Shown here: piece after piece, positions 4,076 to 7,363 of the stretch
Layout of the letters: every line of letters starts with the position of its first letter
Position numbering within the stretch: position 1 is the first letter of the stretch
Assembly (NCBI GenBank): GCA_016185465.1
Contig: JACPNO010000047.1
Span: forward strand, 32,972 to 69,321
From: Candidatus Solibacter usitatus
GTDB lineage: Bacteria; Acidobacteriota; Terriglobia; Bryobacterales; Bryobacteraceae
Direction: 5' to 3'
DNA length: 36,350 nt
Program-made: the position numbers and the translations under genes
The notes under the pieces: generated by a model
What the model was told of the DNA's origin: nothing
Seen by the model: the letters and a program-made list of their open reading frames with translations, nothing else
Database searches by the model: none

Positions 4076-4681
4076 ATGGGAAAACTTCTGCTGGTGCTGC
4101 TGGCGGCGTCGGCCGCCGCGCAAACTCTCCCCGGCGACCGCGTGATTCACCTGAACGCCAATGTTTCGATTGTGGCGTTTTCATCGGATGGAAAATTGCT
4201 GGCGGGCGCATGCGACGATGGCACGGTTAAGTTTTGGGATGCGCAATCCGGCGCCTTGAGCCGGACGGTGACCTGGAGCAAGGGCCAGCGCAGCGCGGCG
4301 TTCTCGCCCGGCGCGAGCATGGTGGCGTCGGCGGGTCAGGAAAAAGTGATCAACTTGTGGGATCTCAAATCCGGAGAGCTCACGCGGCAGATGACGGGCA
4401 ACAAGAAGAAATCCGGACCGCTGGCGTTTTCCCGCGATGGCAAACGGCTGGTAAGCGGCGGCTTCGATAAGACGGTCCGTCTCTGGGATGTGGCGAGCGG
4501 AGGCCTGCAGCTCGAGCTGGAAGATGGCAATGGCGAGCCCAGCAGCGTGGCCTTTTCGCCGGATGGGGAAACGCTGGTTACCGCCAATGCCGATACTACT
4601 CTGAGAATCTGGAACGCGCGCACCGGGCAACTGCAGCGCACGCTCGATGAACTATCGCTGGTGACGTTCACCATGGCTTGA
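4076..4681 (+). CDS. WD40 beta-propeller protein, N-terminal part (frame-broken)
   Basis: 201 residues starting with a short signal peptide (MGKLLLVLLAASAAAQ), so the product is exported. Four complete WD40 blades follow (ending KFWD, NLWD, RLWD, RIWN) and the start of a fifth. The frame then stops at 4679-4681 in the middle of blade 5, just where a FSPDGK-type turn is expected. The remaining two and a half blades continue in another frame from 4678. Together the two frames make exactly seven blades, the size of a closed propeller, so this is best read as one gene broken by a small deletion or a sequencing error. WD40 propellers are protein-interaction scaffolds; the partner is unknown. Confidence 0.85.
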   Translation: MGKLLLVLLAASAAAQTLPGDRVIHLNANVSIVAFSSDGKLLAGACDDGTVKFWDAQSGALSRTVTWSKGQRSAAFSPGASMVASAGQEKVINLWDLKSGELTRQMTGNKKKSGPLAFSRDGKRLVSGGFDKTVRLWDVASGGLQLELEDGNGEPSSVAFSPDGETLVTANADTTLRIWNARTGQLQRTLDELSLVTFTMA

Positions 4682-5004
4682 TGGCGTCGTCCGGGGCCGA
4701 CCGGACCATTCGTCTGTGGGATACGAAAACCTGGAAAGTCGCCCGCACGGTGAACGGGCAGGCGGAGATGGTTAGTCATCTGGCTTTTTCGCCGGACGGC
4801 AAGACGCTCATGAGCGGGGGCTCGAGCGAGTTCACAGGCGCGCGGCCGGTGGAAGTGCGTCTGTGGGACGTGGCGTCGGGAAAGACCAAGCGAGCCCTGC
4901 CATCGCCGCATCGCGTGGTCTCGGTAGCGTTCGCCCCGGATGGCAAGACCGTGGCAGTGTCGGATCGCGACAAGGAAATCAATATCTGGGCAGTCCCGGA
5001 CTGA
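4678..5004 (+). CDS. WD40 beta-propeller protein, C-terminal part (frame-broken)
   Basis: 108 residues carrying the end of blade 5 (IRLWD) and blades 6 (VRLWD) and 7 (INIWA). It overlaps the end of the preceding frame by four bases. It has no signal peptide of its own, and on its own could not close a propeller in the periplasm, which argues that it is the displaced C-terminal half of the preceding gene and not an independent protein. Restoring about six residues (a missing segment whose length is not a multiple of three) would rejoin the frames. Confidence 0.75.
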   Translation: MMASSGADRTIRLWDTKTWKVARTVNGQAEMVSHLAFSPDGKTLMSGGSSEFTGARPVEVRLWDVASGKTKRALPSPHRVVSVAFAPDGKTVAVSDRDKEINIWAVPD

Positions 5005-5005
5005 A

Positions 5006-5045
5006 ACTATCCGGTTGATGCGCCAGGACTATCCATTTGGATAGT
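5006..5045. promoter_or_regulatory. ACTATCC dyad with an extra upstream half-site (candidate activator site)
   Basis: ACTATCC-ATTT-GGATAGT at 5028-5045 is a perfect 7-bp inverted repeat with a 4-bp centre. A third ACTATCC in direct orientation lies at 5006-5012, 22 bp upstream, about two helical turns away. The dyad centre is ~85 bp before the predicted start from the sigma-54 site, a usual position for an enhancer-binding activator. It could alternatively be a weak terminator hairpin for the WD40 gene, but there is no T-run. Confidence 0.6.
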
Positions 5046-5096: not shown

Positions 5097-5112
5097 TGGC
5101 ACACCGTTTGCT
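5097..5112 (+). promoter_or_regulatory. Sigma-54 (-24/-12) promoter
   Basis: TGGCACACCGTTTGCT fits the RpoN consensus TGGCACG-N4-TTGCW with one mismatch, and has the required GG-N10-GC spacing (5098-5099 and 5110-5111). Transcription would start near 5123, leaving a short leader with an AAAGGAG ribosome-binding site before the ATG at 5140. Sigma-54 promoters need a AAA+ activator; none is in the window. Confidence 0.75.
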
Positions 5113-5139
5113 CTATGCAATGGGCAAAGGAGCCAGACG

Positions 5140-5238
5140 ATGAAAACCAAGACCAACGTAAAAGCCGGAAAAGCGGATCCAGGGATGATCACCTTCACGC
5201 ACCTCTACGACAAGGCTAGCCCTGTAATAGCGAAGTAA
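5140..5238 (+). CDS. Small 32-residue peptide (MKTKTNVKAG-type)
   Basis: The frame runs ATG to TAA: it begins MKTKTNVKAGKADPGM and ends YDKASPVIAK. It is preceded by AAAGGAG at 5126-5132, seven bases from the ATG, and by the sigma-54 site, which together support it as a real gene despite its size. The N-terminus is basic and without a hydrophobic stretch, so there is no signal peptide or membrane helix. I associate KTNVKAG openings with short uncharacterised proteins in related genomes, from memory and unverified. The shell-protein gene starts 70 bp downstream on the same strand, so the two may share a transcript. Function unknown. Confidence 0.6.
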   Translation: MKTKTNVKAGKADPGMITFTHLYDKASPVIAK

Positions 5239-5308
5239 CCATCGCCGTCTCCCCGCCGCGAACTGCCTTGTGTTACCGTGAAGTGTTCAACGAAATTTTG
5301 GAGGCGGC

Positions 5309-5602
5309 ATGGAAGCTCTCGGCCTGATTGAGACGAAAGGTTTGGTTGGCGCGATCGAAGCCGCCGACGCCATGGTGAAGACGGCCAACGTCGTGCTCAC
5401 TGGCAAGGAATATATCGGCGCCGGATACGTCACGGTCACGGTTCGGGGAGACGTGGGAGCCGTTAAAGCCGCCACGGAAGCTGGTGCGGCAGCGGCCAGG
5501 CGGGTTGGGGAGCTGGTGAGCGTGCACGTGATCCCGCGCGTGCATGAAGAGGCGGAAAAAGTTCTTCCCGGCGCGGGCCCCATCAAAAAAGCGCTCGGGT
5601 AA
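5309..5602 (+). CDS. Bacterial microcompartment shell protein, hexameric BMC-H (EutM/PduA/CcmK type)
   Basis: 97 residues, a single BMC domain of standard length. Typical features are the [24 protein letters not shown] opening region, a [28 protein letters not shown] central part and the [14 protein letters not shown] strand. Such proteins form hexamers that tile the facets of a protein-walled organelle and have a central pore for metabolites. A GGAGG ribosome-binding site precedes the ATG. The aldehyde dehydrogenase gene starts at the very next base after the stop, so the two are translationally coupled. No second hexamer, trimer or pentamer (vertex) gene occurs in this window. Confidence 0.95.
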
Positions 5603-7363
5603 ATGCAATCGGATAAGGACCGCATCTCGATCGAAGAGGTGCAAAGCAAGGTCGAAAAAGCCTACGCCGCCTGGCAGAAGTACCGCACTTTTAGCCAGGA
5701 GCAGATCGACGCCATCGTCGAGCGCATGGCCGAGGCGGGGCGCACGCACGCGCGCCGTCTGGCTGAATTGGCCGTGGAAGAAACCGGCTACGGCAACGCC
5801 CAAGACAAACTTGCTAAGAATCTGTTGTGCGCCGATGTGCTGCCGCGCAAGATGCGCGGCCTGAAAACTGTCGGCGTGCTGCGCGAAATTCCGGACGAGC
5901 GGGTGGTCGAAATTGGCGTGCCCGTGGGCGTCGTGGCCGCTATTCTGCCGACCACCAATCCCACTTCGACGGCAATTTTCAAATCCCTTATAGCGCTGAA
6001 AGCCGGCAACAGCATTGTGTTGAGCCCGCATCCGCACGCGGTGCGCTGCACCTGCGAAACAGCCAGCGTGCTGTATAAGGCGGCGCGCGAAGCCGGCGCT
6101 CCCGAAGACATTATCGGCTGCATCACCACGCCGACGCTTGAGGCCACCAACGCCTTGATGCGCCATGAACGGACGGGGATTATTCTCTCGACCGGCGGCC
6201 ATGGCATTGTGAAAGCAGCTTATTCGAGCGGCAAACCGGCGCTGGGCGTGGGCCCGGGCAATGTGCCGGCCCTGATTGAGCGCTCCGCCGACGTTGCCGA
6301 TGCCGTCGCCAAGATTGTGGAGGGAAAATCGTTCGACTACGGAACCGTGTGTTCGAGCGAACAAGCTATCATCGCCGAAGAATCGCTGCGGGATCGCATC
6401 GTGAGCGAGCTCAAGAAACGCAAAGTGTTTTTCTGCAACGCAGCGCAGAAAGACGCCCTGTCGCGCCTGCTGGTGACGCCGCAGTTCACCATCAACCCCA
6501 AGTGCGTGGGCCAGGCGGCTCCGAAAATCGCGAAGATGGCCGGGTTCGAAGTGCCCGCGGACACGCCGGTGATCGTGGTGGAATTGGACGGCGTCGGCCG
6601 GGAGCATCCGCTCTCCGCCGAAAAACTCTCCCCCGTGCTGGCGCTGTATTTCGTCAAGGATTTCGCCGCGGCTTTGAAAGTCAGCGCCGGCCTGCTGCGC
6701 TTTGGCGGCCTGGGGCACACGTGCGTGATTCATTCCCAGGACGACGCGCGCATCCGCGAATTTGCGCTGGCCATGCCCGCCTTTCGCGTGCTGGTGAATA
6801 CGCCCGCGCCGCAAGGTTCTACCGGCATCACCACCAACGTGTGGCCGTCGATGACGCTGGGCTGCGGAGCCATTGCCGGCAACGTTACCAGCGACAACAT
6901 CGGGCCGCTGCATCTGATCAACATCAAACGGCTGGCTTATGCGGTGCGCCGTCCGGAAGAAGCCTTTACGGCGGTAAAGCCGGCAGTCGCCAGCAAACCT
7001 GACGACAAAAAGGTCGAGCGCGAAACTCTGGTAGCGGCGGTTGAGCGGTATCTGAGCGGGCGCGGAATCAACGCGCGCGGCGCATCATCTGGCGCGGCTA
7101 GCGACGTGGTGGATCGCTTTCTGCAGAAGCGGCAGGCAGGCGGGCGCGTGTCTACGGGAAGTCCGGCGCCTAGCTGCTCTGCACCCGCGGCGGCGCCGGC
7201 GCCCCAAATCACCGTGGTCGATTTCGTCTGCGAGGAAGATGTCCGGCAAGCCGTGCAAGCCGGACGGAAAATTTACATCGGCCCGCGCACGATCGTTACG
7301 CCTCTGGCCCGCGAGTTGGGGGAGCGCTCTGATATTCTTGTGATGGCCGAGCGCAGGGGCTGA
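5603..7363 (+). CDS. CoA-acylating aldehyde dehydrogenase of the EutE/PduP type with a C-terminal extension
   Basis: 586 residues; usual EutE/PduP enzymes are about 460. They convert an aldehyde, NAD+ and CoA to acyl-CoA inside a microcompartment. The core spans about 10-455: PTTNPTSTA (116-124) and GVGPGN (215-220) line the cofactor site, and the catalytic Cys is Cys250 in [10 protein letters not shown]. After it come two predicted amphipathic helices (471-488 and 499-511), a Pro/Ala linker (512-534) and a compact end module (535-586) with [20 protein letters not shown] and IVTPLAREL. The helices resemble encapsulation peptides that dock cargo to shell proteins; the end module recalls a short motif of EutQ-like proteins. 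Both of these readings are inference. Directly adjacent to the BMC-H gene. Confidence 0.9.

Follow-up and report, generated by a model that had tools for sequence, protein, structure and literature searches.

A putative sigma-54-controlled family of leader-tagged small peptides in Acidobacteriota, with an Hcp-like tail in one member

Introduction

Sigma-54 promoters, enhancer-binding proteins and the double-glycine peptides exported through C39-peptidase transporters (PCAT/AMS), bacteriocins among them, are each already known, the sigma-54/enhancer-binding-protein regulons having been compared in a review (PMC3162934) and the exported peptides described elsewhere (PMC6363468). We report here the analysis of a 36,350-nucleotide stretch of a Candidatus Solibacter usitatus genome (bases 32972-69321 of contig C90; hereafter the window), in which a -24/-12 promoter of the type recognized by sigma-54 (RpoN) precedes the gene of a 32-residue peptide, MKTKTNVKAGKADPGMITFTHLYDKASPVIAK. 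The assembly that holds the window (G000; other G numbers designate the genomes of relatives, and C numbers contigs) comprises 2.34 Mb and is 73% complete; its closest relatives in the collections searched are Bryobacterales-type Acidobacteriota.

The locus and its relatives resemble the reviewed sigma-54 regulons in their -24/-12 promoters, in the palindromes found ~70-160 bp upstream of these and, in relatives, in a divergent gene for an AAA+ Fis-type activator. They depart from them in that the targets are orphan peptides of 16-43 residues and not operons for transport, nitrogen or surface functions, and in that the activators carry FHA and GAF domains. With C39-exported peptides they share small genes, a common leader ending in AG, variable tails and, in G073 (in G030 by sequence likeness), an adjacent C39-ABC exporter and HlyD-type fusion protein. 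Unlike these peptides, however, they have a leader of only ~10 residues, a unit repeated with a 23-residue period in long precursors, sigma-54 control and, at the window copy, no exporter seen nearby. Known double-glycine leaders are longer than this.

Nothing found in the literature and libraries searched, outside which lie most subscription journals, corresponds to a sigma-54 regulon of Acidobacteriota that consists of tiny leader-tagged peptides and includes a tail derived from Hcp; a literature search for the peptide motif or for a system joining FHA, sigma-54 and peptide gave nothing on point, and neither Pfam nor NCBIfam nor the literature searched offered an informative match to the peptide family. 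Acidobacteriota abound in soils, and little is known of their peptide signalling and of their competition; the sequence here appears to define a whole control circuit in them, from activator and paired palindrome to -24/-12 promoter and tiny peptide. We consider it likely, from sequence comparison, that the window locus is an orphan one-gene unit within a peptide family that is controlled by sigma-54 and an enhancer and is probably exported, and that the tail of its peptide is derived from Hcp.

Results and Discussion

The original prediction, which mentioned neither the leader family, nor the Hcp-like tail, nor the upstream palindrome described below, had placed an RpoN-type promoter in front of the 32-residue frame. 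This was borne out: TGGCACACCGTTTGCT matches TGGCAC-N5-TTGCW perfectly with exact spacing, and AAAGGAG, ATG and the 32-codon frame follow it as proposed [Table 1]. It is the sole perfect match in the window, where shuffled sequences lead one to expect 0.05 (5 of 100 shuffles reached one), and RpoN is encoded in the same genome. Genome-wide, sites with at most one mismatch were not enriched (47, versus 62 for a reversed-pattern control), so that the -24/-12 site is credible only through its paralogous modules and the conserved palindrome upstream of it; it was through this recurrence and the palindrome that a chance site was set aside.

Of the five perfect -24/-12 sites of the window's genome, three are followed by the ATG of a leader peptide at a distance of 25-38 nt, as is one TGGCAT site, and all four leader-peptide genes found in this genome, on C90 (the window), C33 (MKTKTNCKAGTPSIPIPPPIRWR), C65 and C14 (MRTKTNVKAGSAMREYGLLLALIAVCF), carry such a site. 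The C65 locus encodes tandem MTTKINLNAEMENLSRRETLVRDSKNLKVKSAVRAG... peptides with a divergent form of the leader, followed by a TPR protein homologous to one from G073. The combination of promoter and leader was met at 7 loci in 4 genomes, and its reversed control at none. Four other genomes share the layout of a sigma-54-type promoter before a leader peptide. Copies with a weaker promoter consensus occur in G139, G151 and G120, where the promoters are those of 16-residue leader peptides; in G073, perfect -24/-12 sites precede the gene of a peptide of 38 residues and that of a precursor with 16 repeats. Four copies in one genome and the same layout in four others thus support the earlier claim that the promoter stands directly before a real small-peptide gene. 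Elsewhere in the window's genome, a perfect -24/-12 site lacking the palindrome precedes the gene of a 222-residue protein (C36; L229:4865-5572), the start of which resembles a signal peptide and which is probably a different sigma-54 target.

The 32-mer consists of two parts, a leader of ten residues, MKTKTNVKAG, and a tail. Among 150 genomes from the same bacterial family, 12 had the pattern M-K-x-K/Q-T-x-V/I-K-A-G at a start codon (reversed pattern, 0), and in the rest of the phylum it was all but missing (2 genomes apart from that of the window; n=396); the window peptide itself conforms to the family N-terminus M-K/R-x-K/Q-T-x-V/I-K-A-G. Pairwise comparison of the codons of 26 distinct leader sequences yielded 1220 synonymous and 833 nonsynonymous differences. 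Variation is thus mainly synonymous and the leader conserved at the protein level, and the synonymous bias that the original prediction had asked of the short frame in relatives was found for this part of it. Family members range from 16-mers (MKTKTKIKAGIAVWGT) and 21-mers (MKVQTSVKAGFNPQPDPPGRR) to multi-repeat proteins of 186 and 367 residues. The longest, a precursor from G073 (contig C7; L198:6387-7490), holds 16 motif copies with an almost exactly 23-residue period as well as 16 NHN/NHS motifs, and its gene adjoins those of a TPR protein, an HlyD protein and a C39-ABC exporter. On contig C39 of G028 (L208:8146-8577), three tandem 21-residue peptides read MKVQTxVKAGFNPQPxPPGR(R/H), in which the tail FNPQPxPPG is conserved.

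These properties bear on the proposal that the short frame is a regulatory upstream open reading frame, of which the translation alone counts and through which a downstream gene of the same mRNA is controlled. Its position 70 bp upstream of the gene of a microcompartment shell protein (BMC-H) would suit such a role, as would the location of paralogues upstream of other genes; yet the downstream genes vary between loci, the leader is conserved as protein, and members with many repeats, of up to 367 residues, are unlike any usual upstream open reading frame. We regard this proposal as highly improbable.

The palindrome ACTATCCATTTGGATAGT upstream of the promoter is a probable enhancer for a sigma-54 activator, lying, as judged by sequence only, within the interval of about 60-200 bp upstream that is expected of an activator-type site. 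With at most one mismatch, it occurs within 160 nt upstream of all four leader promoters of this genome (without mismatch at -68 in the window and at -159 on C14; with one on C33 and, twice, on C65) and at 0 of 43 near-consensus sites elsewhere in it, the chance of coincidence being ~6e-6. Perfect palindromes numbered two in 241 kb of sequence from the window's genome and 12 in 120 kb from relatives, every one at a leader-peptide promoter, and none in 835 kb of other loci. In G139, G151 and G120, six promoters likewise have the palindrome upstream of them, usually as a pair spaced by 21 bp. From this pairing, the half-site ACTATCC that precedes the full palindrome of the window is probably a degenerate second activator site.

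The palindromes of G139, G151 and G120 occupy the region that separates the peptide promoter from a divergent activator gene. Pfam assigned the architecture FHA-GAF-AAA+-Fis to the activators of G139, G120 and G073, and that of G151 is of the same length with an identical C-terminus; in G073, a related FHA-GAF activator adjoins the perfect promoters. The expectation that sigma-54 control would imply a dedicated activator is thus supported by the recurrence of the module, by the palindrome and by divergent activator genes at four relatives' loci. The window palindrome falls just after the stop codon of an upstream WD40-repeat gene and folds (z -3.4) without a T run; because of this placement, it may have a second role as an RNA hairpin. 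A role solely as terminator of the WD40 gene was rejected, as a T run is missing and the palindrome recurs upstream of other peptide promoters.

The tail of the peptide, GKADPGMITFTHLYDKASPVIAK, points to the type VI secretion tube protein Hcp (TssD). The last 23 residues of the peptide (10-32) can be aligned with residues 50-72 of Hcp at 74% identity, and the peptide matched 11 plasmid records, every one annotated as Hcp/TssD (74% identity and E=2e-4 for the best). The only Pfam match, T6SS_HCP (PF05638; E=0.015 over 29 residues), scored 16.1 bits against a cut-off of 23.5 and is thus below the threshold for a full Hcp domain. At the DNA level, the tail is 80% identical to Caballeronia hcp over 50 bases. 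Compared to Hcp itself, the peptide matches 23 of ~160 residues only, has no type VI genes near it and begins with the N-terminus of the leader family.

That the frame is instead a chance, functionless remnant of a decayed type VI hcp gene once driven by sigma-54 would account for a tail homologous to Hcp 50-72 only. No further Hcp remnant was found on either side of the tail and no intact hcp in the 73% complete assembly (hcp was found in 139 of 200 relatives), and type VI clusters of other bacteria are under sigma-54 control (e.g. PMC8855297). Against such decay, leader and tail share one reading frame, the differences of the tail from Caballeronia hcp are largely synonymous, and the first ten residues, the ribosome-binding site, the promoter and the palindrome all recur before peptides with unrelated tails. 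A plain hcp remnant was rejected on the ground that Hcp accounts for the tail only, and we hold decay of hcp in general to be unlikely.

The C14 paralogue (L202:8162-8245) offers a weak lead of a similar kind, its tail resembling in sequence a Flp/Fap pilin helix (E=0.072); nine shuffled tails gave no Flp-pilin match, and the tail had no plasmid match. Taken with the Hcp tube segment of the window peptide, this pilin-like helix raises the idea, which we hold to be unlikely, of a sigma-54 regulon for leader-tagged peptides whose tails are pieces of secretion or surface machines, and which would serve, exported or inside the cell, as decoys against rivals or the cell's own machines. Were this so, the tails would interfere with assembly of the machines from which they came.

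In the explanation that we favor, that of a sigma-54-controlled family of probably exported peptides, a specific signal sensed through the GAF and/or FHA input would activate the enhancer-binding protein, which we infer to bind CTATC-N6-GATAG and to contact RpoN polymerase at the -24/-12 site. The polymerase would then make a short mRNA encoding the 32-residue peptide, the family thus probably being produced upon that signal. Each member would combine the common leader MK-x-K-T-x-V/I-K-A-G with an exchangeable tail, that of the window copy coming from, or copying, part of Hcp. The leader would probably act as a recognition sequence for processing or export, after which the cut and exported tail would probably be the active part. 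Export is proposed because genes for a C39-peptidase ABC exporter, HlyD and a TPR protein stand beside the leader peptides of G073. As the tails are exchangeable and one of them appears to stem from a type VI tube protein, the purpose of the peptides could be tested with few constructs.

Several observations weigh against this explanation. The surroundings of the window copy, and the stretches of its genome that were read, revealed no exporter, and none of the seven activator-type proteins of this 73% complete genome had an FHA-GAF match, which may reflect the absent quarter. The G073 promoters are devoid of the CTATC-N6-GATAG palindrome, the leader peptides of G058, G030, G067 and G028 have no sigma-54 site, and leader and Hcp tail occur together in no other genome searched. 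By sequence likeness only, the leader-repeat peptides of G030 (contig C163; L204:7757-13952), G058 (L203) and G067 (L205) lie near a Ser/Thr kinase-like gene, with genes resembling an extracytoplasmic function (ECF)-type sigma factor and a C39-ABC exporter also near those of G030. Such surroundings would mean that the peptide family is controlled in more than one way.

Table 1. Features of the peptide locus and its downstream neighbor (window coordinates)
Feature	Position	Strand	Remarks
Half-site ACTATCC	5006..5012	+	22 bp before the full palindrome
Palindrome ACTATCCATTTGGATAGT	5028..5045	.	Core CTATC-N6-GATAG at 5029-5044, its start 68 nt before the -24 element
-24/-12 promoter TGGCACACCGTTTGCT	5097..5112	+	Exact GG-N10-GC spacing
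Predicted transcription start	5122..5123	+	From the -12 position and usual sigma-54 promoter spacing
Ribosome-binding site AAAGGAG	5126..5132	+	GCA(A)GGAGCCA context shared with the C14 and C33 paralogues
Peptide gene MKTKTNVKAGKADPGMITFTHLYDKASPVIAK	5140..5238	+	32 residues; ATG at 5140
Leader MKTKTNVKAG	5140..5169	+	Conserved in the small-peptide family
Hcp-like tail GKADPGMITFTHLYDKASPVIAK	5167..5235	+	Equivalent to residues 50-72 of Caballeronia Hcp
Extended -10 element TGTTACCGT	5271..5279	+	Putative separate promoter of BMC-H, outside the peptide unit
BMC-H shell protein gene	5309..5602	+	Starts 70 bp after the peptide stop; judged an independent unit

Downstream of the peptide, the BMC-H gene and then that of an acylating aldehyde dehydrogenase (5603-7363) were found in the order and at the distance originally described. 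Together, genes 5309-7363 belong to the EutM/EutE type of microcompartment locus, of which, in relatives, the peptide unit is not part. The same strand, the 70 bp gap and the lack of a terminator-like site on the + strand between the two genes would favor a sigma-54 microcompartment operon in which the peptide is a leader, or a small shell or cargo part, for BMC-H and the dehydrogenase; because of this lack, read-through from the peptide promoter into BMC-H may occur. Yet the novel sigma-54-controlled microcompartment unit that had been envisaged did not survive comparison with relatives, where a conserved order of -24/-12 site, peptide and shell gene had been looked for: none of 27 acidobacterial BMC-H loci has a comparable site or a leader peptide before BMC-H. 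The paralogues of the peptide, moreover, adjoin unrelated genes, and an extended -10 element, TGnTAnnnT, between peptide and BMC-H is aligned just upstream of the latter in the window, as it is in 7 of 8 close relatives, so that a housekeeping promoter of its own is most likely for BMC-H. An operon of this kind is very unlikely in our estimation.

The aldehyde dehydrogenase has 586 residues, of which the acetaldehyde dehydrogenase model covers those up to 454; the extension of ~130 residues perhaps serves encapsulation. On the other side of the peptide unit, the WD40-repeat gene (4076-5004) is frameshifted near 4680 into frames 4076-4681 and 4678-5004, either through an assembly error or through decay.
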